In this document: one piece after another, positions 4,114-52,919 of the stretch | How positions within the stretch are numbered: the stretch's first letter is position 1 | Layout: every line of letters starts with the position of its first letter | Assembly (NCBI GenBank): GCA_023143455.1 | Contig: JAGLHT010000009.1 | Coordinates: 1-64,000, forward strand | Length of the DNA stretch: 64,000 bases | Reading direction: 5' to 3' | From: Desulfobacterales bacterium | Lineage (GTDB): Bacteria; Desulfobacterota; Desulfobacteria; Desulfobacterales; Desulfobacteraceae | The notes under the pieces: model-generated | Told to the model about the DNA's origin: nothing | The model's input: only the letters and a program-made list of their open reading frames with translations | Database searches by the model: none | Made by a program: the position numbers and the translations under genes

Positions 4114-5124
4114 ATGAATGAGAAATCAATACTTTTGGTTGATGATAATGAAAATCAATTAAATCATCTTAACCATTCTTTAAAAGACCTAGGTTATAAA
4201 AATACCTTCACGGCGGACCGAGGTGATAATGCATGGGTTCTTTTGAAACTAAAAAAAATTGATTGTGTTGTCTGCTCCTATGAAATGAAAGAGATGTCAG
4301 GCATTGCTCTTTTAAAAATTCTGAGAAGAGAAGACCAGATGGCTGATATACCTTTTTTTCTCACCGACCCTGCATTTACAAAAATCAAGGTTCTTAAAGC
4401 AGGTCAGATTGGAGTCACCGGCCTTTTTGTCATACCTTTTGATAATGAGGCAATGCAAAAGAAAATTAATAAATCCCTGAAAGAAGTAAAAGAGCCAATA
4501 ATAGAACAGACCCAACAAACACTTGATCATGGTCTTGAACTTATAGAAAATAAAGAATATGACAAAGCACTACAGGTTTTTACTGTACTTGTGAATCAAA
4601 AAGAAATCCCTGAATATTATTTTAACATAGGTTACATTAAAACATCCCAGGGTAAACACAGCGAAGCCATTGATGCTTTCTCAAAGGCGACAAAATTAGA
4701 CAGGCTTTTTGTCAAAGCTTATGAAGCAATGGGGCGGGCATACAAGCTTATTGGTGATTTAAAAAAGGCAGAAGAACACATGCAGCTTGCCGCAGAAATT
4801 TATATGGAAACCGATAAGCTTGATTCTGCTGAAGACGTATTAAATGAAGTTCTGGAATCAGGTACCCACTCGTTGAATATATATAATACACTGGGGGTTA
4901 TTCAACGAAAAAAGGGGAATACAGAAGTTGCCCTTCGCCAGTATAAAAAAGCACTAAAAATCCACCCTGAAGAGTCTTATCTTTACTATAATATTGGCAG
5001 ACTCTATCTGGACATGAAGAATGCTTCAAAAGCAAAAAAATATTTCCAGCAAGCGCTTGACAGGAATCACGAATTTAAAGAAGCAAAACAGATTTTAAAA
5101 GCAATTGATCTTGGGATTGTTTAA
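4114..5124 (+). CDS. Degenerate receiver domain fused to TPR repeats
   Basis: 336 residues: a CheY-like receiver (1-120) followed by tetratricopeptide repeats (about 140-335). The acidic pair D10-D11 and T84 are kept, but the phospho-acceptor position, 44 residues after D11 exactly as in CheY, is S55 (sequence VVCSYEMKEMSG). The conserved Lys before Pro-Phe is I107 (VIPF). It therefore cannot be phosphorylated in the usual way and is better seen as a protein-interaction module. It lies eight bases downstream of the adenylate cyclase and probably acts with it; that is inference. It ends convergent with the GntR gene, with a four-base overlap. Confidence 0.85.
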   Translation: MNEKSILLVDDNENQLNHLNHSLKDLGYKNTFTADRGDNAWVLLKLKKIDCVVCSYEMKEMSGIALLKILRREDQMADIPFFLTDPAFTKIKVLKAGQIGVTGLFVIPFDNEAMQKKINKSLKEVKEPIIEQTQQTLDHGLELIENKEYDKALQVFTVLVNQKEIPEYYFNIGYIKTSQGKHSEAIDAFSKATKLDRLFVKAYEAMGRAYKLIGDLKKAEEHMQLAAEIYMETDKLDSAEDVLNEVLESGTHSLNIYNTLGVIQRKKGNTEVALRQYKKALKIHPEESYLYYNIGRLYLDMKNASKAKKYFQQALDRNHEFKEAKQILKAIDLGIV

Positions 5125-5907: not shown

Positions 5908-7074
5908 TTATTTAAATTTCTCAACACTTGAAAAATCACGTTCTAAATCAAAATTATTTAAAACATCATGATCTTCCGCAGTCAATTGTTCTGTTACAAT
6001 TCTGGATAATAATTCGCCCAATCCAGGTCCAAGCATATAACCCTGACCACACATACCAACAGCGCTGATAAAATTTGGATTGCCTTTATGAGCTCCCACA
6101 AGAGGGAATCCATCAGGGCTCATTGGATATTGACCCCTCCATGTTCTTCTTACTTTTAGGTTGACAAGTTTAGGAAATAAAGAAACCATTCTTTTTGCCA
6201 CCTGGGGTAAAAATACAGATGTGGATTCACTATTTGTTCCATATATAAGATTTTTTGGAGTAATACAAAAAATAACTTGCCCCTCATTATTCTGATAAAA
6301 ATAATAATTAGCAGAATCCTCAGTAGCCGGATCCTCACACGGTCTTAGATCTACAACCATTGGACCAAAAAATCTTTGTACTGGCTCTGTAATCGCCCCT
6401 TCATGACTGTCTGGAATAACAGGAATATCAAAGCCTGCCATTTTTCCAATTTCTTTTGCATAAATTCCTGCTGCATTTATGACTTTATTTGCAGAATATT
6501 CACCCTTATCAGTCTTGATTTTTATTTCATCTGATTTTGAAGTATCAATGGACAAGACTTGTTCATTAAACTTATATTGTGCTCCAAATTCAAGGCTTTT
6601 AAAATAAAATGCGTTAATGGCAAGTAAAGGAGATGCACTACCATCATCAGGTGAATAGGTTGACCCTCGAAGGTTTTCTTGATTAATACCAGGTACTATT
6701 TCAAGGTATTCTTCTTTAGAAAGCCATTTAATATTAAGATTAAATGATTTTTGTACTTTCATTAAATCTTTCAGCATTTTCTCATCTTTTTCACTATATG
6801 CAGGGAAACTATAACCATTTGCTATCCAGCCAATATCATCACCATACACCTCTTTCCATGTGGAAAAAATTTCAATACTTTTTAAAGATGTTGCGATTTT
6901 ACCTTTATCTGAATGTGTTGCCCTGATACCGCCAATTGCTTTTTTGTTTTGCCCCTGTCCCGGGGATGCCAGAGAATCAATCACAAGAACTTTCAATTTT
7001 TTTTGAGCCAATGAAAGAGCAGTAGGAACTCCCACAGAGCCTGCGCCGATTATAATTACATCAAAAGTTTTCAT
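5908..7074 (-). CDS. DAO-family FAD-dependent amine/amino-acid dehydrogenase
   Basis: 388 residues of the glycine/D-amino-acid oxidase (DAO) family, related to the beta subunit of sarcosine oxidase. The dinucleotide-binding motif is at the N-terminus (DVIIIGAGSVGVPTALSLA) and the C-terminal family block reads GLGELLSRIV after MCGQGYMLGPG. It should oxidise the C-N bond of a secondary amine or D-amino acid. Its start overlaps the stop codon of the upstream iron-sulfur flavoprotein gene (TAATG), so the two are coupled and probably form one complex, with electrons leaving through the larger subunit. The substrate cannot be named from sequence. Confidence 0.85.
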   Translation of the reverse strand: MKTFDVIIIGAGSVGVPTALSLAQKKLKVLVIDSLASPGQGQNKKAIGGIRATHSDKGKIATSLKSIEIFSTWKEVYGDDIGWIANGYSFPAYSEKDEKMLKDLMKVQKSFNLNIKWLSKEEYLEIVPGINQENLRGSTYSPDDGSASPLLAINAFYFKSLEFGAQYKFNEQVLSIDTSKSDEIKIKTDKGEYSANKVINAAGIYAKEIGKMAGFDIPVIPDSHEGAITEPVQRFFGPMVVDLRPCEDPATEDSANYYFYQNNEGQVIFCITPKNLIYGTNSESTSVFLPQVAKRMVSLFPKLVNLKVRRTWRGQYPMSPDGFPLVGAHKGNPNFISAVGMCGQGYMLGPGLGELLSRIVTEQLTAEDHDVLNNFDLERDFSSVEKFK

Positions 7075-9146
7075 TATTGACCTCCATTTGCAAATTTGCC
7101 CAAGGGCACTTCCACATACAATGGGCGACGGATATTTAGAACCATATCTTCTTGAGCAATCTTCTCTGCAAAAAAGATTTGTTTTATTAAATTTTCACAT
7201 GTTTTGTATCCGCAAGGTCCCATACCAGCCCTTGTTACAGCTTTAATCTGATTCATATCAGTAGCACCTGTTCTAACCAGCTCCCTTATTTCGCCTGCTG
7301 TAACTCCTTCGCAAAGGCAAATCACCTCATTATCCTGAATATGATCATGGGGAATTTTTTCAAACAATTGTTCAGAAACTTTCTTTGTCTGAATTTTAAA
7401 TCCTACAATTTTTTTAGCAACCTCTTTTGATGCTTTAATTCTAACTATCTGCGTTCTGTCGCTATCTTTTGTGGCTTTGGCACCAAGTACTTCAAAAAAC
7501 CCAAGTTCATTGCCATCAACATCCACACATGTTGCTTTATCACCCTTTTGTATGGAATAATTATAAACTTCATAAGGTAAGAAAACGGTTGGGTTTTCTT
7601 TGTCTTTTCTAAAATCAACAAGCGTGATTGCAAGCCCCGGGCATATTGTAAGGCATTTCAAACAACCCTCACACCCTTTTGAATATTTTGGAAGCCCTTT
7701 TATGGGATCCCCATCCATAAAGATTGCTCCTTCAGGACATACAGTAGAGCACGGATTACATGGTATCTCTTGTTTACAATGGAGAACAGGGAAAATTCCT
7801 TCTTCGAGGGTTGAGGTTTCAATTTCCTGGAGCTCGCCTGGATGAGATTTTAATATATCTGCCTTAGTATACCATGCTTCAGGAATCTCTTTTGCTTCAG
7901 GCAAAAACTCTTTTACTATTTTTATGCCTGCGATTTTACCATTAAACATTGCAGAAGATGCTTCAGCAATTTCTGATGCGTCACCGGCTGCAAACACTTT
8001 GATCCCAGCACTTTTGGCTTCATCGGTAAATTCTGCAACCGACTCAAGACCAACAGCAATAAGAACAGTGTCACACTCATATGTTTTTTCAGTGCCTTCA
8101 ATTATATTAAAATTTTCATCAACTTTGGCAATGGTTACAGATTTTACAGAATCGCTGCCATTGGCTGATACAATGGAATGCGATGTATAAATTGGAACCC
8201 CAAGTCTTGTTAACTTATCCTCATGAACTTTATATCCACCGCATTTGGGTGCCGCTTCGGCAAGCCCCACAACATTTATACCTGCCTGGAGTGCATGGTA
8301 ACCTGCAATAATACCAACATTCCCACCACCAATAATAAAAAGGTTTTCTGAAGGTTTGACAAGATCTCGATTTACAAGGGTTTGGAAAGCACCTGCCCCA
8401 TAAACACCTGAAAGGGAATTACCTTTGAATCTTAAAAATTTTTCTCTGGCACCTGCTGCATTTAAAATAATTTTTGGAGTAACAAGTTTATAAACACCGT
8501 CTTTGAGTATACCAACTTTTTTATCATTAAAAACATACAAAGCTGTGCTACTTCTCCAAACCTCAACATATTCACTTTGCTTAACTTCGTCGGCAAGCAT
8601 GCTTCCAATATCCATTCCTCTCATACCAGCATAGGAATCTTCAACTGAACCAAAAAATTTATGGGTTTGAAGTACAAGTTTACCGCCAAGTTTATTTTTA
8701 TCATCAATAAGAATTGTTTTTATCTTATTTTCATTAAGTTGTATTGATGCAGACAGACCTGCCGGGCCGCCTCCAATAATTAAAACATCAGTTTCAATAT
8801 TCTCAATATCACTGATTTGAGCCTGTCCTTCAACATCGGGAAGCGTAGGTAGACCTTCGACTCTTTCAATAAACATATTTTCCTGAACTTCAACCATACA
8901 CGCTTTAACTGGAATTCCATTAGCAATCACCGTGCATTTTGCACACTGACCATTGGCACAAAAAATTCCCCGGGCAGAATCATCTTTATGGTTATGACCA
9001 AAGACTTTTATCCCGTTTGCAAAAAGTGCTGATGAAATAATTTCATCTTTTTTTGCAAAAAGCTTTTCTTTGTTCCAATAAAATGAAACTTCTTCTTTCC
9101 CCACAATAGGAAGAACAGGGTGCTGTTCAATTCTGTTCTTTGTCAT
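7074..9146 (-). CDS. Multi-cluster Fe-S/FAD dehydrogenase subunit, sarcosine oxidase alpha-like
   Basis: 690 residues with four redox modules in one chain. First is an N-terminal [2Fe-2S] plant-type domain (C63, C68, C71, C83). Next is an FAD/NAD(P) two-dinucleotide-binding domain (GGGPAG at 125-130 and a second GGGNVG). Then comes a double [4Fe-4S] ferredoxin segment (CNPCSTVCP and CEGCLKCLTICP). Last is a BFD-like [2Fe-2S] domain (C610, C612, C645, C650). This matches the alpha subunit of heteromeric sarcosine/D-proline-type dehydrogenases with the ferredoxin and BFD subunits fused in. In an anaerobe it probably passes electrons to ferredoxin or NAD rather than oxygen. GGAG lies six bases before the ATG. 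First gene of the operon behind the operator at 9193-9207. Confidence 0.85.
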   Translation of the reverse strand: MTKNRIEQHPVLPIVGKEEVSFYWNKEKLFAKKDEIISSALFANGIKVFGHNHKDDSARGIFCANGQCAKCTVIANGIPVKACMVEVQENMFIERVEGLPTLPDVEGQAQISDIENIETDVLIIGGGPAGLSASIQLNENKIKTILIDDKNKLGGKLVLQTHKFFGSVEDSYAGMRGMDIGSMLADEVKQSEYVEVWRSSTALYVFNDKKVGILKDGVYKLVTPKIILNAAGAREKFLRFKGNSLSGVYGAGAFQTLVNRDLVKPSENLFIIGGGNVGIIAGYHALQAGINVVGLAEAAPKCGGYKVHEDKLTRLGVPIYTSHSIVSANGSDSVKSVTIAKVDENFNIIEGTEKTYECDTVLIAVGLESVAEFTDEAKSAGIKVFAAGDASEIAEASSAMFNGKIAGIKIVKEFLPEAKEIPEAWYTKADILKSHPGELQEIETSTLEEGIFPVLHCKQEIPCNPCSTVCPEGAIFMDGDPIKGLPKYSKGCEGCLKCLTICPGLAITLVDFRKDKENPTVFLPYEVYNYSIQKGDKATCVDVDGNELGFFEVLGAKATKDSDRTQIVRIKASKEVAKKIVGFKIQTKKVSEQLFEKIPHDHIQDNEVICLCEGVTAGEIRELVRTGATDMNQIKAVTRAGMGPCGYKTCENLIKQIFFAEKIAQEDMVLNIRRPLYVEVPLGKFANGGQ

Positions 9147-29154: not shown

Positions 29155-30525
29155 TTATTCATTCATTTTTTCAAGCCTGTATCTGAGTGTGGCCCGGGAC
29201 AGCCCAAGGAATCTTGCAGCCTTGGAGACATTGTTGTTCAAAGTTTTCATTGCATAATTAATGCAATAACTTTCAAGATCATCAAGACTGAGCCCATGAT
29301 CATGAATTATCATTGGAATTAATCTGTCCATATTTATCTGCTCAAATGCTTTTTCTTGAGCTTCATTTAAAAGAACATGATGGCTTGTAATTTGAGAACC
29401 TTTACTAAGGATCATTGCCCGCTCAAGAACATTTTTCAACTCCCGGATATTTCCTTTCCAGGGATATTGTTTCAGTTTATTAATTGCTTTGTCTGAAAGC
29501 TCCGGTGGTTTCCTGCCAAAGGCCTTTGAAAATTCTAAGATAAAATGCTTAGATAGCTTGGGAATATCTTCCTTTCTTTCCCTCAATGATGGAATATGGA
29601 CTGGGAATACATTGATCCTGTAAAAGAGGTCTTCCCTGAAAAGTTTTTCTTCAACCATCTCTTCAAGCTTTTTATTGGTTGCAGCAATAATCCTGACATC
29701 AGCCTTCACAGTTTTTGCTCCGCCCAATCTCTCAAACTCACGGGTTTCAAGTATTCTTAAAATCTTTGCTTGAACATCAAGTTTCATATCCCCAATTTCA
29801 TCTAAAAATATGGTTCCGCCTGCTGCAATTTCAAATTTCCCTTTTGTTCTCTTGTGGGCACCAGTAAACGCTCCTTTCTCATACCCAAACAACTCTGCTT
29901 CCAAAAGGGTGGAAGGAATCGCAGCACAATTAACAGTTAAAAAAGGTCCGCTGGAACGAGGGCTGTTGATATGGGTGGCGCGGCTCAATAGTTCTTTTCC
30001 TGTGCCACTTTCTCCGGTAATAAGGACTGTTGTATCTGTATTAGATACAGAACCTGCAAGCTTGAGGGCATCACAGATACTGGGAGAATCCCCAACAATA
30101 TTTTCAAATGTATACCGATCCTCAATCTGTTGCCTTAGATGACGTACTTCATAGGTTAAGCGACTGATTTTTAATGCTTTTTTGACACTTAACAGCAATC
30201 TCTCTTCTTTAAAGGGTTTAGTAACATAATCAAAAGCTCCTTTTTGAATTGCTTTGACAGCATTCTCAATGGAACCATAAGCTGTAATGATAAGCACCGG
30301 TGTCTCAGGATCTTTCTCCTTAATAAAATTAAGAACCTCCATTCCATTAATTTTTGGAAGTTTTAAATCTGTGATCACAAGATGAATAGTCTCATTTTCA
30401 AATATATCAATAGCCTGCTTACCGTCTACTGCCTCAAAGATATTAAGGTCAAGATCAGAAAGCTGCATTACAATAACCTGCCTCATTCTTTTTTCATCTT
30501 CAACTAATAGAACGTTTGCTACCAT
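29155..30525 (-). CDS. NtrC-family sigma-54-dependent response regulator
   Basis: 456 residues: a receiver with phospho-acceptor D53 and K103; an AAA+ domain with Walker A GESGTGKE (171-178) and the sigma-54 contact loop GAFTGA (218-223); and a Fis-type helix-turn-helix at the C-terminus (NVSKAARFLGLSRATLRYRL). It activates transcription by RNA polymerase with sigma-54. GGAG precedes the ATG, which lies one base after the stop of its kinase gene. The three -24/-12 promoters at 33329, 33421 and 36595 are its likely targets. Confidence 0.93.
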   Translation of the reverse strand: MVANVLLVEDEKRMRQVIVMQLSDLDLNIFEAVDGKQAIDIFENETIHLVITDLKLPKINGMEVLNFIKEKDPETPVLIITAYGSIENAVKAIQKGAFDYVTKPFKEERLLLSVKKALKISRLTYEVRHLRQQIEDRYTFENIVGDSPSICDALKLAGSVSNTDTTVLITGESGTGKELLSRATHINSPRSSGPFLTVNCAAIPSTLLEAELFGYEKGAFTGAHKRTKGKFEIAAGGTIFLDEIGDMKLDVQAKILRILETREFERLGGAKTVKADVRIIAATNKKLEEMVEEKLFREDLFYRINVFPVHIPSLRERKEDIPKLSKHFILEFSKAFGRKPPELSDKAINKLKQYPWKGNIRELKNVLERAMILSKGSQITSHHVLLNEAQEKAFEQINMDRLIPMIIHDHGLSLDDLESYCINYAMKTLNNNVSKAARFLGLSRATLRYRLEKMNE

Positions 30526-30526
30526 A

Positions 30527-32395
30527 TTATTTCTCCTGTAACACTGAAGGGAATAACAGCTTAAACTGGGTGCCTTCCCCTAGGGTGCTATTAATTTTTA
30601 TCAAACCTTTGTGATATTTAACAATCTGGGAAACAATGGATAATCCGAGTCCGATACCATCATCCCTAAAACTGACAAAGGGATCAAGAATTTTTTCCAT
30701 TTGCTCATCACTGATACCGCAACCCTGATCGCTGATGGAAACCGTCAGATAATCCGGGTTCTGCTGGGTTAATCCCATAATGGGAATTATTGATTCATCA
30801 ATGGTTCCCTTGCCTTTTTCAATATCAATCCTGACATTTATAGTTCCGCCATCGGGCATTGATTGAATAGCATTTAATAAAATATTCCAAAACACTTCTT
30901 TTATCTGATCTGGATCAGCCAGAATAATTGGTGCCATGTCTGGAAAAGCTCTATCTAATCTATAGCCTTTCTCGCTAAAATGTTCTTCCGTGGAAACAAA
31001 AATTTCTTCAAGCAGATCAACAATATCAATTCGCTGAAAATTTGGAGGAGCAGGTTTGGCAAAATTAAGAAATGCTGTCAGGGTTTTATTTAATCGCCCT
31101 ACCTCTTCCATAATAAAAACAGCTGCTTTTTCTCTCATTTCCAAGGGGCGGTCAGGATTTGATACTACTTGCGCAGATCCTAGGATAATACCCAAAGGAT
31201 TTTTAATTTCATGGGCTATGCTTGCTGTCATTTGCCCCACAGCAGCAAGTTTCTCATTTTGGGCAAGCTCAGCATAGGTTTTTTTTAACTCATTGATGCT
31301 TAATCGCAGGGAAGAAGCCATTTGATTGAAAGACCCTGCCAATGCAGAAGCAATATCCGGGTTAGTGATATTGACTTTATACTCAAGGTCCCCGCTGGAA
31401 ATTCTTTCAATCCCTTTTTTGAGAATATTTAAGGGGCTGACAATTGTCATGGCAAGAAGATAGCTTAAAAGGCTGGAAAGAAGGATGCCTGCAATTACCA
31501 AGGTAATAATAGCCCTTTTAATAGTTATAATATTTTCAAGAAAATCTGAAACCGGAAGAGTAACGCCCACGGTCCAGTCATTTCCAGAATAATCTGTATA
31601 GGCTGTAAAAAACTGATCTCCTTGGAATGAGGACATACCAAATGTTTTGTTTTCCCGTTTCAGGTCGGTCAGACAAGTTCGCAAAAGATCAATATGATAG
31701 GGATTCCAGGGGAGCTGAACCAGTGATGGATGTGCAATAACCCGACCTTGTTTGTTTTCAAATATATAAGCAAACCCCTGTTTACCAATTTTAATACCTT
31801 TTAAAAATTTTGAAAATGCAGAGATATCAATGTCGATTCCACAGACCGCCTTGACAGATCCGTTATTATCATAAATTGGCACTGATACAGCCATTCCGGG
31901 TTTCTGGGTCGATGCAAACAAATAAACATCTGTCCAGTAAACACCTTTTGCACGTATAGCACCTCTGTACCATGGTCTAACCCGGGGATCAAAAATTTTG
32001 TGGACTTCTGGAATTTGAGCAGGAGCCATTAAAAATCGACCGGTCTCATCTCCAAAATTAATGTTGACAAATTCAGGATGATCCTGCTGAAACAGATAAA
32101 AATATTTAAGGATTTGCTTGTCATCAGAATAATCAATTAGTTGATTTTCAAAAAAAGATTTAATCAACTTTGCATTATAAGTGTACTGGGATAAAAAAGA
32201 TTCCACTCGTTTTGAAATCATGACAGCCGTGCCAAGAGCAGATTGCTGCATCTGCTGTTCTGCAACTTTTCTGGCTTGCAGATAACAAAAATAGCCTGTT
32301 CCCGGAATCACAATGACAATGATCAGGGTCAGTGCTAAAAAAATCCTGACCTGAAAAGAGTGGAAAAAAAAATTAAATTTCTCTTTTAACCACAT
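30527..32395 (-). CDS. Membrane sensor histidine kinase with Cache domain
   Basis: About 622 residues: transmembrane helix 1 (near 16-38), a periplasmic double-Cache sensor of about 270 residues (DPRVRPWYRGAI, YWTDVYLFASTQKPG and GIDIDISAFSKFL are Cache_1 signatures), helix 2, HAMP, HisKA with the phosphorylated His in SIAHEIKNPLG, and an HATPase with N box and DQGCGIS. Cache domains usually bind small organic acids or amino acids. The frame extends to a TTG at 32461 inside the upstream gene; I prefer the ATG at 32395, which has AGGAG 13 bases before it. Cognate regulator: the adjacent NtrC-type protein. Confidence 0.9.
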   Translation of the reverse strand: MWLKEKFNFFFHSFQVRIFLALTLIIVIVIPGTGYFCYLQARKVAEQQMQQSALGTAVMISKRVESFLSQYTYNAKLIKSFFENQLIDYSDDKQILKYFYLFQQDHPEFVNINFGDETGRFLMAPAQIPEVHKIFDPRVRPWYRGAIRAKGVYWTDVYLFASTQKPGMAVSVPIYDNNGSVKAVCGIDIDISAFSKFLKGIKIGKQGFAYIFENKQGRVIAHPSLVQLPWNPYHIDLLRTCLTDLKRENKTFGMSSFQGDQFFTAYTDYSGNDWTVGVTLPVSDFLENIITIKRAIITLVIAGILLSSLLSYLLAMTIVSPLNILKKGIERISSGDLEYKVNITNPDIASALAGSFNQMASSLRLSINELKKTYAELAQNEKLAAVGQMTASIAHEIKNPLGIILGSAQVVSNPDRPLEMREKAAVFIMEEVGRLNKTLTAFLNFAKPAPPNFQRIDIVDLLEEIFVSTEEHFSEKGYRLDRAFPDMAPIILADPDQIKEVFWNILLNAIQSMPDGGTINVRIDIEKGKGTIDESIIPIMGLTQQNPDYLTVSISDQGCGISDEQMEKILDPFVSFRDDGIGLGLSIVSQIVKYHKGLIKINSTLGEGTQFKLLFPSVLQEK

Positions 32396-32402
32396 ATAAG
32401 GA

Positions 32403-33248
32403 CTAATACTCCTTTGCACTTTCTTTAATTTCTTTTGCCAAGTATAAGTTGGCAATGTCAAGGGCTAAATATTGTTCAACATATGGCAATGCTTTTTGAG
32501 CATATTCTTCATTCATAAGCATCAATTTGATTGCAAGCCCTGTTGAAACACTCTTTCGATATTCTTTCCACAAAACATCAAATGCTTTATCAACTTCAGT
32601 TTTGTCATGGGCATGCCGGATAATTTCCAAAAGCGCAATTCCTGCCCATTGTCTTTTTGCTTTGTCTTTTGCCGGCTTAACCCCTTTGATTGTTAAGGGA
32701 TATACAAGGCTGACCCAGGGTACAGGAGAAGAAATCCCAATTTCAATATCAGGATAAGTTTTTACAATATGCCAGAAGTATTGAATCCCGACTTCTTTTT
32801 CCTGCAGAAGATCACAATGAATCCATCCCAGATACCAGTATGCTTTTACAAGAAGCTGAGGATGTCCCTTATAATTACTAATTACATCATGATAGGCTTT
32901 AATGGCATTATAATAATCCTCTTTTGTTGCAAACCTGTAATCATAGCCAAAATTCATATATGCCAAATAAAGGGCGGCATTCCCGCATTCAACCTCAGCT
33001 TCAGGAAAAATATAAGATATGATCTCAAACGCTGCCTTTTTTTCTTCAGAATCTGGAAATCCTGATTTAGCAAAATTTAACTGGTCATGAGCTGTTGGGA
33101 ACTGTGGAATTTTAAATCCTTGAAAAGATATAACCTTAAGCTCGGATTTGGGGAATGAAAGAGAATTTAATTCATCACTACAACCGTTTAATAATAAAGT
33201 AGCTACGGCTAATAAAAGCATGATTACTATGGCATGTTTTTTTTTCAT
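32403..33248 (-). CDS. Periplasmic lipoprotein with helical repeats, first gene of the two-component operon
   Basis: 281 residues with a lipobox LLLNGC, Cys at residue 23. The mature part is helical with TPR-like periodicity (AYHDVISNYKGHPQLLVKAY, YLGWIHCDLLQEKE). The ATG at 33248 is used; the longer frame opens with TTG at 33257. It stands directly before the histidine kinase, which starts seven bases later. A role as a periplasmic partner of the sensor is inference from this fixed position. Confidence 0.75.
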   Translation of the reverse strand: MKKKHAIVIMLLLAVATLLLNGCSDELNSLSFPKSELKVISFQGFKIPQFPTAHDQLNFAKSGFPDSEEKKAAFEIISYIFPEAEVECGNAALYLAYMNFGYDYRFATKEDYYNAIKAYHDVISNYKGHPQLLVKAYWYLGWIHCDLLQEKEVGIQYFWHIVKTYPDIEIGISSPVPWVSLVYPLTIKGVKPAKDKAKRQWAGIALLEIIRHAHDKTEVDKAFDVLWKEYRKSVSTGLAIKLMLMNEEYAQKALPYVEQYLALDIANLYLAKEIKESAKEY

Positions 33249-43509: not shown

Positions 43510-46429
43510 AAAATTTATAACTGACTTGCACATTCATTCTAAGTTCTCAAGAGCCACAGCAAAGAACCTTGATCTTGAACATATTTATATGGCTGCTATG
43601 ATTAAAGGAGTGAGTGTAGTTGGAACTGGTGATTTTACATATCCTGCCTGGATAGCTGAAATAGAGGAAAAGCTTGAACCTGCAGAACCAGGATTTTTTA
43701 AGCTAAAGCATGAGCTTAAGAAAAGGCTTGATAAAGAAGTGCCAAAAACTTGCCACAATAAAGTCAGATTTATTCTTCAAACTGAAATCAGCAGCATTTA
43801 TAAAAAAAATGATCGGGTTAGAAAAAATCATAATCTGATTTTCTTTCCTGAAATTGAAATTGTAAAAAAATTTAATTCAATACTTGATAAAATCGGTAAT
43901 ATAAGGTCTGATGGACGTCCTATCCTTGGGCTTGATGCTGAAAACCTTCTTGAACTCATGCTTTCTGTTGATGATAGGGGAATTTTTATCCCGGCTCATA
44001 TCTGGACTCCCTGGTTCTCAATGTTTGGTTCAAAATCCGGATTTGATACCATTGAGGAGTGCTTTGGATCATTAAGCAAACATATTTTTGCTGTAGAAAC
44101 AGGTCTTTCTTCTGATCTTCCCATGAACTTTCGTGTGCAAAATCTTGACAATTTAAGTCTTATTTCAAACTCAGACGCCCATTCTCCACGCTTTATAGGC
44201 AGGAATGCTTCTATTTTTAATACTGATTTTTCATATTTTGGTATCAGAGAAGCGCTCATAAAAAAAGATATTACAAAGTATCTTGGCACAATTGACATGT
44301 ACCCGGAGCTAGGTAAATACCACTATGACGGTCATAGAAACTGCAATGTCTGTTTTAATCCTGTTCAAACCCTTGAATTTGACGGAATCTGTCCGGAATG
44401 CAGCAAACCATTAACCCTTGGAGTTTTAAACCGAGTCCAAAAACTTGCAGACAGACCAGAAGGTTTTATCCCTGAAAATAGGCATGGGTACCAAAGCATT
44501 GTACCTCTTGCTGATATTCTTTCTGAAATTTTTAAGGTGGGACCCAATACAAAAAAAGTTAATGCTAACTTTAATAAAGCTATTGAACAGATCGGTCCTG
44601 AGCTTGAGATTCTTCTTAATAAGAGCATTAAAGAGATTGAAAAAGCAAAGATTCCTTTGCTTGCCAAAGCTATTGAAAAAATGCGGCAAGGGGAAATTAC
44701 AATCTCTCCCGGATTTGACGGTGAATTTGGAAAAGTAAAAATATTTAAGAGCGAAAACCTCTCTCTTTTTGGTACAAAAAAGACTGCCAAGAAAAAAGAA
44801 AAACAATCAAAAACAATATCAACAATGCCCACATTCACTAAAGCTATAAGCAAGCCTGATCAAAAACAACAAGTTCAGGAAAAAGGGTTAAATAAAGAAC
44901 AGAAAAAAATTGTTCTGACAGAAAGACTCCCCCTTATTGTTGAAGCAGGTCCTGGAACCGGGAAAACAAGAACACTAACTGAAAAAATAGCCCACCTTAT
45001 TACAGAAAAAAAAGTTGAGCCCGGTTCAATCCTTGCCCTTACATTCACAAATAAGGCTGCAAATGAAATGAAGCAAAGAATCTCTAAAATGATTCTATGC
45101 AAAAAATCAAAAACTCTTTCTGTCTCTACTGCAACTTTTCATTCTTTTTGCCTGATGATTTTAAAAGAATTTACATCTTTTGATTTTGCAATTGCTGACA
45201 ATGATACAAGGGGAGGTCTGATCAAAAATGCATGCACAAGCAAAAAAATTAAACCCGCTGATGCTGACCTGATAATTCAAAAAGAAAAACAGAATTTACA
45301 AACTTTTAAAAATCATGGAAATAAAACCATACAAAATATATGGCAGAAATATGAAAGCCTCTTATTAGCAAATAATCTTGTTGATTTTGAAGATTTGATC
45401 TTAATGACTGTAAAATTGTTACAAAAAAATAACGATCTTCTTTTAAAATTACAAAAAAGATTTATCCATATTTTTATTGACGAATATCAGGATATTAACA
45501 AGGCACAATATGTTTTAATAAAACTTATTGCAGGAAATGGGACAAACCTTATGGTAATTGGCGATCCTGACCAATCGATTTATGGGTTTCGAGGCTCTGA
45601 TAATAAATATTTTAAACAATTTACAGATGATTTTCCCGATAGTAAAAAAATTATATTAAATAAAAATTACAGGTCAACCCAGACAATTTTGGATGCATCT
45701 TTTCAGTTGATTGCCAGCCAGGATGTGACAAATTCAAAAAAGAAAATTTTTTCTGATATTACCGGACAAAAAGAAAAAATCATTATTGTGGAAACTGCTA
45801 GCGAAAAAGCTGAAGCTGTTGCAGTAGGTAAGATGATTGAAGAACTTATCGGAGGCACTTCTTTTTTGTCAATAGACGCACTAAACGTAAAAACGGCAAA
45901 AGAATATTCCTTTGCTGATTTTGCAATTCTCTTCCGTACAAAAAAACAGGCCTTGGTTTTTGAAGAAATTTTTGAAAAAGCAAATATTCCCTTCCAAAGC
46001 CCAAATAAAGAAAAAACCAAAGCCCAAAACAAGGATAAAAACCAAAGTGAGCTTTGGAACCATGAGCAGGATTTCCTTGAATTTGAAGCCGAGAAGATTT
46101 CTCTTATGAGCATCCACGCATCTAAAGGACTTGAATTCCCGGTTGTGTTTGTAGTTGGATGTGAAGAGACTTTTATTCCTTTTTCAAAGAACGGAAAAAC
46201 AATAGACAATATTGAAGAAGAAAAACGCCTTTTCTATGTTGCCATGACCAGAGCTAAAGACATTCTCTGTCTCACCCATGCAAAAAAAAGAATGATTTTT
46301 GGCAAAACCTGTGCTAGAGAAAAGTCAAATTTTTTATCCAGTATTGAAGAAAATCTTAAACAGTATCAAAATAGTGACTTTAAAAAAAAGATAAAAAATA
46401 TAATAGCAAAACAATTGGAACTATTTTAA
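43502..46429 (+). CDS. Endonuclease Q/PHP-like nuclease fused to UvrD-type helicase
   Basis: 975 residues in two halves. Residues 1-400 match the EndoQ family of PHP-like nucleases: metal site DLHIHSKFSRAT (8-19), GTGDFTYP, TEISSIY, SNSDAHSP and a four-Cys zinc site (C281, C284, C297, C300). EndoQ enzymes nick DNA 5' of deaminated bases. After a Lys/Gln-rich linker (about 425-465) comes a superfamily 1 helicase: Walker A GPGTGKT (483-489), DEYQDIN, GDPDQSIYGFRGSD, LNKNYRST, MSIHASKGLEFPVVFV and FYVAMTRAKD. The helicase is compact, about 510 residues against about 720 for UvrD. The TTG at 43502, with GGAG six bases before it, begins the protein where EndoQ homologues begin and overlaps csaA. 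Probably a self-contained excision-repair machine. Confidence 0.85.
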   Translation: MPEKFITDLHIHSKFSRATAKNLDLEHIYMAAMIKGVSVVGTGDFTYPAWIAEIEEKLEPAEPGFFKLKHELKKRLDKEVPKTCHNKVRFILQTEISSIYKKNDRVRKNHNLIFFPEIEIVKKFNSILDKIGNIRSDGRPILGLDAENLLELMLSVDDRGIFIPAHIWTPWFSMFGSKSGFDTIEECFGSLSKHIFAVETGLSSDLPMNFRVQNLDNLSLISNSDAHSPRFIGRNASIFNTDFSYFGIREALIKKDITKYLGTIDMYPELGKYHYDGHRNCNVCFNPVQTLEFDGICPECSKPLTLGVLNRVQKLADRPEGFIPENRHGYQSIVPLADILSEIFKVGPNTKKVNANFNKAIEQIGPELEILLNKSIKEIEKAKIPLLAKAIEKMRQGEITISPGFDGEFGKVKIFKSENLSLFGTKKTAKKKEKQSKTISTMPTFTKAISKPDQKQQVQEKGLNKEQKKIVLTERLPLIVEAGPGTGKTRTLTEKIAHLITEKKVEPGSILALTFTNKAANEMKQRISKMILCKKSKTLSVSTATFHSFCLMILKEFTSFDFAIADNDTRGGLIKNACTSKKIKPADADLIIQKEKQNLQTFKNHGNKTIQNIWQKYESLLLANNLVDFEDLILMTVKLLQKNNDLLLKLQKRFIHIFIDEYQDINKAQYVLIKLIAGNGTNLMVIGDPDQSIYGFRGSDNKYFKQFTDDFPDSKKIILNKNYRSTQTILDASFQLIASQDVTNSKKKIFSDITGQKEKIIIVETASEKAEAVAVGKMIEELIGGTSFLSIDALNVKTAKEYSFADFAILFRTKKQALVFEEIFEKANIPFQSPNKEKTKAQNKDKNQSELWNHEQDFLEFEAEKISLMSIHASKGLEFPVVFVVGCEETFIPFSKNGKTIDNIEEEKRLFYVAMTRAKDILCLTHAKKRMIFGKTCAREKSNFLSSIEENLKQYQNSDFKKKIKNIIAKQLELF

Positions 46430-51019: not shown

Positions 51020-51385
51020 CTAAATTTCATTTCTTGCAGCATGTATTCTTTCTGCCATTTCATCAGTTAGTAAAGGTTTTTTTAATATTGAAAATAATTT
51101 AGTTTCAAAAGCTGCTTCATCACTTATCAATGCAGGGTCACCCGTACAAATCATTATTTTTGCATTTTTATCTTTTTCACGAATTTTTTGCGAAAATTTA
51201 AGCCCATCCATCTCAGGCATCTGAAAATCAGCAATGATAACATCATATAGCCCTGGAGATTTTTCCACAGCTTCAAGAGCGGCACTTGGCGAATTGTAAG
51301 CTTCAACTTCAAACCCATATTTTTTATACATCAACTTACTGAAGAGGCTTGTTATATCAGGCTCATCGTCTAAAAAGAGTATCAT
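51020..51385 (-). CDS. Single-domain response regulator
   Basis: 121 residues, receiver only. D6-D7, phospho-acceptor D53 (IIADFQMPEMDG), the Thr in ICTGDP and the Lys-Pro after ILK are all kept, so it should be phosphorylatable. It has no output domain. AAGGA lies seven bases before the ATG. It is the last of three same-strand genes after a thioredoxin-like protein and another receiver; no kinase is adjacent. Confidence 0.88.
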   Translation of the reverse strand: MILFLDDEPDITSLFSKLMYKKYGFEVEAYNSPSAALEAVEKSPGLYDVIIADFQMPEMDGLKFSQKIREKDKNAKIMICTGDPALISDEAAFETKLFSILKKPLLTDEMAERIHAARNEI

Positions 51386-51521
51386 TTATTATTCCTTTTC
51401 GTCATACTAATCATTCCATAATAGAATTTATTCATCCTTGAATTAACGAAAAACAGAAATTAAATAAAATCAGTATAGAAGCTTCTATCCTGAAAAGTCA
51501 ATGAAAAATATAATGAACTTT

Positions 51522-52505
51522 TTAAATTCGTAACTTGATAGCTTCCAGGGAATCATTCGCTGCTTCTTGAAGATCTGTAGAGTCTATATTTTTAAGTTCT
51601 TTTTCAATTAAAACCATATCTTCGATCCTGCCTGCTTCACCCAGGGCGTAGAAAATATCCCCTTTCACATCAACCGAAACTGTATGAAATTTATCCCATA
51701 AAAGAGGGCATATTTTATTAGCAAGCTCAATATTTTTTTCAGCAAGTTCTTCAATTACAACTATTGCGCCTAGACGCACAGACCAAATTTCGTGGATTAC
51801 AAGTTTAATAAATTCAGGGAAAATCATATTTTTCACAAGCATCTGCTCTGTAAGCCATGATGCTTTCCCATCTTCAAGAATCCTTCTCAAATTTGAAGCT
51901 TTCAGAGTTGATGAATCACGATTTGCAAGAACGTCGGTTATCTCTTCCATGGTCACGCTGCCAGTCCACCTGAAATCATCATCCAAAACCAAACATGGTA
52001 CAGACATTATGGAATTCGCTGTAGCTTCTTCAGTAAAAATTGTTGGATCTATTATGTTCAACTCAATATTTTTACACTCATATGCCATATCTATCATATT
52101 TTCAACCAGGATCGGACAATGAGGACATTCTGGAGCTACAAACAATTTTAATTTTATGGGGATATCTATCTTTTTAAGATTTGTTTTTATTTTTTGAGAA
52201 AACTCTCTTTTTCTGGTATGGGTATTTTGGGACAAAGCTTTTAAAAATGGCTTGAGTTCGTTTGAAAGGGGAACAGCAGAATATCTTATGTTTTCAGTTA
52301 CTATTATCTCAGGAAGATGGTTCTCTTCTCTTTTTTCTTTTTTAATAGTAACATGTTGCGCTGATCGGGCAAAAAGGGTAAGAAAATTTTCAAGAATTTT
52401 ATCTTCTTTTGATCCTGACTCAATAAATTTGATATTTATATTTTCTTTTTGATTTGAATTGAAGGTTTCAACTAATTCTTTTTCTTCATCACTGAATGGG
52501 TGCAT
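51522..52505 (-). CDS. Thioredoxin/glutaredoxin-like protein with HEAT-like C-terminus
   Basis: 327 residues. Residues 1-105 look like a first thioredoxin fold without Cys. Residues 115-195 form a second one with the redox motif C127-P-H-C130 and a cis-Pro in IMSVPCLVLDD, as in protein disulfide oxidoreductases and the AhpF N-terminus. From about 205 on it is helical with HEAT-like repeats (LVIHEIWSVRLGAIVVIEEL, then VDVKGDIFYALGEAG). No signal peptide, so cytoplasmic. It lies nine bases after one receiver gene and before a second, suggesting a redox input to a signalling protein; the function is not known. Confidence 0.78.
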   Translation of the reverse strand: MHPFSDEEKELVETFNSNQKENINIKFIESGSKEDKILENFLTLFARSAQHVTIKKEKREENHLPEIIVTENIRYSAVPLSNELKPFLKALSQNTHTRKREFSQKIKTNLKKIDIPIKLKLFVAPECPHCPILVENMIDMAYECKNIELNIIDPTIFTEEATANSIMSVPCLVLDDDFRWTGSVTMEEITDVLANRDSSTLKASNLRRILEDGKASWLTEQMLVKNMIFPEFIKLVIHEIWSVRLGAIVVIEELAEKNIELANKICPLLWDKFHTVSVDVKGDIFYALGEAGRIEDMVLIEKELKNIDSTDLQEAANDSLEAIKLRI

Positions 52506-52514
52506 ATGCTTATT

Positions 52515-52919
52515 TTAATTTTCTTTTAAGAGGCCTACTCGTAAAAGTTTTATCTCCATTGATTCATTATTAAAAGGTTTAATAACATAATCATTACAAC
52601 CGCCTTCAATGGACAACCTCACAGTCTCTTTTTCAGATGTAGCAGTAACCATCAAAATTATAACCTGATTCTCTTTTGATATGGACTTTTCGCGTTCAAT
52701 CTTTCTAATTCTTTCTAAAACATTCAGGCCACTAATGTCAGGCATTGAAATATCAAGTGTTATAAGGTCAAATGAATCAGTTCCGTCGACAATATTAACA
52801 CTGAATTTCTCTATTGCTTCTTTTCCATTTTCAGCTTCGATGCATTTGCCATACTTACCCAGAATTTTAATCATTTTCTTTCTGCTGGCAACTTCATCAT
52901 CAACTACAAGTGCCTTCAT
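52515..52919 (-). CDS. Single-domain response regulator
   Basis: 134 residues. Receiver with D7-D8, phospho-acceptor D56 (LITLDISMPDISG), Thr in LMVTATSE and K in VIKPFNNES. GGAGG five bases before the ATG at 52919 decides the start over the longer frame from 52937. First gene of the receiver, thioredoxin-HEAT, receiver cluster. Confidence 0.88.
   Translation of the reverse strand: MKALVVDDEVASRKKMIKILGKYGKCIEAENGKEAIEKFSVNIVDGTDSFDLITLDISMPDISGLNVLERIRKIEREKSISKENQVIILMVTATSEKETVRLSIEGGCNDYVIKPFNNESMEIKLLRVGLLKEN

Follow-up and report, generated by a model that had tools for sequence, protein, structure and literature searches.

A thioredoxin-HEAT protein family encoded beside signalling genes in Desulfobacteraceae, a possible redox-active docking adaptor

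Results

Here, we report that a sulfate-reducer protein with two thioredoxin folds and HEAT repeats, which we call T, shows gene linkage to signalling proteins in Desulfobacteraceae, and that this link, most often with a cyclase carrying pseudo-receivers, is what is conserved, not the trio of receiver, T and receiver in which the protein was found. T may bind signalling proteins in this family and exchange thiols with them as a redox-active docking adaptor, a reading to which we give a probability of about 0.4. The window, i.e., the whole 64,000-nucleotide stretch of a Desulfobacterales contig that we analysed, carries the trio as follows:

52515-52919, minus strand: RRA, a single-domain receiver, 134 aa from its ATG (Pfam PF00072).
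51522-52505, minus strand: T, 327 aa, two thioredoxin folds in tandem followed by HEAT repeats (Pfam, AlphaFold2 model, structure alignment).
52116-52127, minus strand: CPHC active site C127-C130 in the second thioredoxin fold of T (conserved Cys).
51993-51998, minus strand: cis-Pro170 and the third cysteine C171 of T (alignment).
51525-51920, minus strand: HEAT repeats of T, residues 196-327, in which the motifs VRLGA..E and GD...LG are conserved (AlphaFold2, VIA-align, Pfam HEAT_2 in homologues).
51020-51385, minus strand: RRB, a single-domain receiver, 121 aa (Pfam PF00072).

An earlier note on this DNA had described a receiver, a thioredoxin-HEAT protein and a second receiver on one strand without a kinase, and the three minus-strand ORFs are indeed found there. 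No kinase gene is among the immediate neighbours of the trio, i.e., the receivers are not encoded with a cognate kinase as in a two-component system, and the closest histidine kinase in the window (30527-32461) is ~20 kb off. RRA lies upstream of T with a gap of 9 bp, and RRB comes after T with a gap of 136 bp. The trio is flanked by housekeeping genes, coaX and ybbR upstream and lnt and prfB downstream (Pfam), with two further upstream genes that we take to be folP and ftsH. Promoter and terminator signals within the trio showed nothing beyond chance (15 versus a chance mean of 11.2 and 2 versus 1.2, respectively). Elsewhere in the window, an NtrC-type response regulator adjoins a HAMP-HisKA-HATPase kinase (29155-32461, minus strand), a 336-aa ORF has an N-terminal receiver domain (4114-5124, plus strand), and the orthologue of a PHP/UvrD-type helicase (43511-46426, plus strand) is located ~5 kb from T in convergent orientation. 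Many other Desulfobacteraceae carry the helicase gene directly beside T, or beside the cyclase-T pair described below, in divergent orientation, and the distance and orientation seen here hint at a local rearrangement.

Both RRA and RRB contain a complete PF00072 domain (E 6e-20, 71.8 bits and E 3e-20, 72.9 bits, respectively, against a gathering score of 30.2) together with the acidic pair, acceptor aspartate, threonine and lysine of a receiver, which by inspection are D7 D8, D56, T92 and K114 in RRA and D6 D7, D53, T81 and K103 in RRB. RRA has two cysteines, C26 and C108; a disulfide between them inside RRA looks unlikely, judging from the REC fold. RRA orthologues, 44-52% identical, are lone receivers away from T in 12 other Desulfobacteraceae genomes whose neighbourhoods were read, near genes that we take to be CYTH-like, ferredoxin-like and sometimes kinase genes. 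Both cysteines are kept in 14/14 RRA orthologues, T-linked or unlinked, and the C108 position, which is the one covered by the control, is Cys in 0/42 other receiver domains. These cysteines were ruled out as a T-specific trait because they are equally kept where RRA is far from T. Beyond the genus, most of the closest relatives of RRB belong to long open frames of the kind found in hybrid kinases. In G000, REC accounts for ~4% of the genes (108 REC matches over 2.7 Mb, gene number estimated).

T matches Pfam Thioredoxin_3 (E 2e-11), and its AlphaFold2 model, built with 27 homologues, has a mean pLDDT of 94.4. Residues 3-194 of the model align with the AhpF N-terminal domain (1zyn) with a Z-score of 23.4 over 191 residues at 2.5 Å, and the range of about residues 3-195 against 1zyn, 6il7, 2ayt and 1a8l (AhpF-N/PDO) is Z 21.8-23.4, with PDO at ~21.8; a PDB sequence search put 4mnn and 6il7 on top. 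The cysteines of T are at 127, 130, 144, 171 and 266 only, so the first thioredoxin fold is Cys-free and CPHC (C127/C130) sits in the second, just as had been claimed from the sequence. HEAT-like repeats had been proposed as well and are seen in the model, in which residues 196-327 align with HEAT/alpha-solenoid structures with Z 10-11; this part is below Pfam thresholds in the present T sequence, though Pfam HEAT_2 matches T homologues. The best NCBIfam matches are PDO (80.6 bits) and AhpF (72.4 bits), both far under the cut-offs of 185 bits (PDO equivalog TIGR02187) and 502.9 bits (AhpF). Fusion of T to signalling domains was also considered and rejected; the long T frames at L178, L195, L191 and L158 look like upstream mis-starts with no extra Pfam domain.

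T is a conserved, old Desulfobacterota protein family. A full match is present in 42/58 relatives (own genome counted in), five having only a partial AhpF-like match and 11 none; at E <= 1e-10, partial AhpF-like matches included, 290/389 genomes of the class and 70/395 of the phylum have one. The nearest relative, at 72%, is JAIOSM01 (Desulfobacteraceae bacterium SMBSF44 bin_25). C127 and C130 are both kept in 121/121 aligned T sequences, as are P170 (121/121) and D283 (121/121), with R244 and E252 each in 120/121. C171, directly after cis-Pro170, is found in 41/43 Desulfobacteraceae sequences versus 1/78 others, where Thr occupies the position in 73 of 78; since C171 is also present in T of unlinked Desulfobacter (g7) genomes, it marks the clade and not the linkage. 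The Desulfobacteraceae set takes in Desulfobacula, Desulfobacter, Desulfotignum, Desulfospira, Desulfamplus and Desulfobacterium. In the open-access literature, we found neither a described function for the T family nor a paper on a Trx-HEAT family or on a link of T with signalling genes. As a side observation, AhpF/thioredoxin-reductase-like genes at L400, L401 and L402 (G405, G442 and G671) have an in-frame TGA at the expected active-site Cys (U-P-Y-C), suggesting selenoproteins.

The trio recurs in the sole congener found (G001), with RRA 81%, T 72% and RRB 78% identical, RRB being cut by the contig end there; the RRA-T gap is 9 bp in both congeners, which argues that the trio is more than chance. 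RRA and RRB flank T in 1/40 relative loci and in 1/120 loci of a wider set, for which 80 extra loci were hand-picked, mostly one per genus; both times it is in this congener, and the trio as a conserved module was therefore rejected beyond the genus. The neighbourhood search proposed in the earlier note thus returned the trio in one congener and in no other relative locus, and the outcome that the note had named as fatal, the three genes being unlinked in all relatives, is nearly what was found for the trio. The trio evidence is from two genomes, and the trio is confined to the genus as far as found.

The gene neighbours of T gave a different picture at the family level. There are 42 Desulfobacteraceae T loci from 11 genera, and in 25 of these loci the upstream gene is on the strand of T and no more than 250 bp away; loci L071-L129 and one further locus set were left out of the neighbour counts. 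Signalling domains (REC, GGDEF or kinase) occur in 23/25 of these codirectional upstream neighbours and in 9/10 genera, compared with 6/267 genes located three or more positions from T in Desulfobacteraceae. These counts are lower bounds because the HMMs were bootstrapped from few seeds (three for REC, one for each other domain). By Pfam, the partner types are kinase, single receiver, membrane GGDEF, HPt-REC-REC-GGDEF and REC-REC-GGDEF; at least four kinds of signalling partner are in the same place beside T. The neighbour seen most often is a diguanylate cyclase of the order REC-REC-GGDEF, whose two receivers are degenerate, and 7/17 of its gene pairs with T overlap by exactly 4 nt, as called. 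In g8, the partner is a kinase preceded by a ligand-binding protein. The g2 loci have membrane GGDEF proteins next to T, with a methyl-accepting protein ahead of them in two of the three loci, and also an HPt-REC-REC-GGDEF protein one gene from T; in g2, too, T can precede genes for a kinase and an NtrC-type regulator. T is without a signalling neighbour in Desulfobacter (g7) and in part of Desulfobacula (g14). With "none" and unscored counted as classes, the distribution of partner classes over the T tree (50 rows) requires 13 changes, versus 27.5 in shuffles; the classes cluster, so the 23 signalling neighbours are not independent and go back largely to a single inherited cyclase-T pair. Near the kinase-linked and g2 lineages, the g1 pair forms an early branch of this tree.

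Outside Desulfobacteraceae, a first HMM count hinted at signalling enrichment (downstream 4/34, upstream 1/46, background 10/481), but the Pfam control did not, and the candidate was rejected: among the 25 commonest Pfam families of each set, REC, MCP and HATPase each occur in 2/80 codirectional T neighbours (from 78 loci), and REC and HATPase each in 2/140 random genes of the same loci. The link of T with signalling is thus a Desulfobacteraceae trait. In several distant genera (L175, L177, L183 and L194, and L178), T follows two genes, one for a radical SAM protein resembling spore photoproduct lyase and one that we take to be ParB-like.

Of 14 cyclase orthologues at E <= 1e-70, 12 adjoin T, one is cut by the contig end and one is in a genome without T. 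In the latter (G010, L334, ~6399-8153) the cyclase is at its usual site, T is absent before the next conserved gene and the helicase is only a fragment; this may be loss or an assembly gap. Sixteen T-linked cyclases were aligned (pairwise identity 29-90%), and C457 (L037 numbering), directly before R[YF]-GGDEF, is their sole invariant Cys (16/16). The same position is Cys in 3/29 other GGDEF domains of 11 Desulfobacteraceae genomes (30 high-scoring loci, 29 readable), one of these three, L397 of G001, being itself distantly related to the T-linked cyclase. All five Desulfotignum (g13) cyclases have a broken GGDEF motif and retain the RxxD site and C457. The acceptor Asp of REC2 is present in 4/16 and REC1 has no acidic pair, read by eye from the alignment; the receivers are therefore mostly pseudo-receivers.

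Discussion

A link between thiol redox state and phosphorelay signalling, as the earlier note suggested, stands in part. T is joined to signalling genes in much of Desulfobacteraceae and with several partner types across the T tree, so the receivers beside it are not an isolated accident. "Phosphorelay", however, is not what is conserved, since the two receivers of the commonest partner are mostly degenerate; the trio is seen only in the congener, and there is no enrichment outside the family.

Our preferred reading, that T docks on signalling proteins of Desulfobacteraceae as a redox-active adaptor, builds on observed features, i.e., the predicted fold, the conservation, the gene linkage and the cysteine patterns. 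T would work in the cytosol and combine a dithiol/disulfide module, of the AhpF-N-terminal/PDO fold, with a HEAT scaffold for docking; within the family it would be wired to signalling proteins and presumably co-transcribed with their genes. Its HEAT and thioredoxin surfaces would dock on receiver- or GGDEF-type partners, and CPHC with the extra C171 would switch a partner cysteine according to the redox state and so affect signalling. The target could be C457 of the linked cyclase, next to its GGDEF motif, and possibly C26 or C108 of RRA; in the source genus the partners would be RRA and RRB, both encoded beside T. In Salmonella, TrxA binds OmpR, PhoP, SsrB and NarL, all of them response regulators, and for the most part does not need its cysteines for this (PMC9584953), which would support docking by T even if no thiol exchange takes place. 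A more detailed version seems rather unlikely to us, namely that the Trx-HEAT protein with its three-cysteine active site is a dedicated redox adaptor that swapped partners during Desulfobacteraceae evolution (the pseudo-receiver cyclase via its single invariant Cys at the GGDEF/I-site hairpin, a histidine kinase, lone receivers), its thiol state gating c-di-GMP or phosphoryl signalling.

Several observations count against an adaptor. T has no signalling neighbours in most genera, the cyclase occurs without T in one genome, the RRA cysteines are kept where RRA is unlinked, C171 is present in the unlinked g7, and the trio is in two genomes. T could instead be a general thiol oxidoreductase or a chaperedoxin-like holdase, i.e., a CnoX-like union of a catalytic thioredoxin fold and a helical-repeat client-binding domain, whose signalling neighbours are incidental or merely co-regulated. 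We regard this as possible, if doubtful: T is widespread in Desulfobacterota with variable neighbours, mostly non-signalling outside one family, YbbN (CnoX) structures are weakly among the Foldseek matches, and CnoX unites holdase and redox functions (PMC6282202); however, the codirectional upstream neighbours in Desulfobacteraceae are overwhelmingly signalling genes of several types, and T has HEAT instead of TPR and its best fold match in the AhpF N-terminal domain, not in CnoX.

That same fold match (Z 23.4), together with the NCBIfam scores for AhpF and PDO (72 and 81 bits, both far under cut-off), would fit an electron-transfer module working like the AhpF N-terminal domain between a flavoprotein reductase and a peroxiredoxin or similar enzyme, with HEAT docking that enzyme. 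Yet the 327 aa of T hold no reductase domain, and neither peroxiredoxin nor reductase is among the recurrent neighbour families identified (Pyr_redox_2 in 2/80 T neighbours outside the family), which makes this role improbable. As to the trio alone, it may be a chance juxtaposition in one genus, produced by a move of T, and with it an ancestral lone receiver, to a site behind the conserved folP-ybbR-coaX genes; coaX adjoins folP or ybbR in 29/29 genomes, the two congeners are the only ones with T and RRA behind it, and RRA orthologues elsewhere are unlinked to T. Against this, the two congeners share the 9 bp gap, with RRA 81% and T 72% identical, and the wider Desulfobacteraceae pattern makes a chance signalling neighbour unlikely; we consider such a juxtaposition unlikely.

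Strict anaerobes must sense oxidants, yet to our knowledge there are few known cases in which two-component or c-di-GMP signalling is directly tied to thiol state. T may tie the redox state of the cell to signalling. A family whose genes time and again lie beside those for receivers, kinases and GGDEF proteins, with C171 in T and C457 in its commonest partner, offers a definite candidate for such a link, one open to testing, and the adaptor reading, if true, gives a role to this Desulfobacterota family.

Among known systems, REC-REC-GGDEF diguanylate cyclases have the same domain order as the usual Desulfobacteraceae neighbour of T; the T-linked cyclase differs in its mostly degenerate receivers and in the broken GGDEF motif of the Desulfotignum members. 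The AhpF N-terminal domain and archaeal/Aquifex PDO are like T in having tandem thioredoxin folds with the redox-active CxxC in the second. Unlike AhpF, T has no FAD/NADPH reductase domain in the same chain (no Pyr_redox match in its 327 aa) and carries HEAT repeats instead, and unlike both it falls far below the NCBIfam cut-offs, TIGR02187 included, and has C171 after cis-Pro. CnoX is a single thioredoxin fold followed by TPR, whereas T has two thioredoxin folds followed by HEAT-type repeats and no TPR family by Pfam. What CnoX/YbbN chaperedoxins share with T is the joining of a thioredoxin fold to helical repeats (PMC6282202). Salmonella TrxA resembles T as a thioredoxin fold engaging response regulators, binding that T would share; the Salmonella case concerns an ordinary TrxA acting on DNA-binding regulators in a largely Cys-independent manner (PMC9584953), whereas here a Trx-HEAT protein is encoded beside the receivers.
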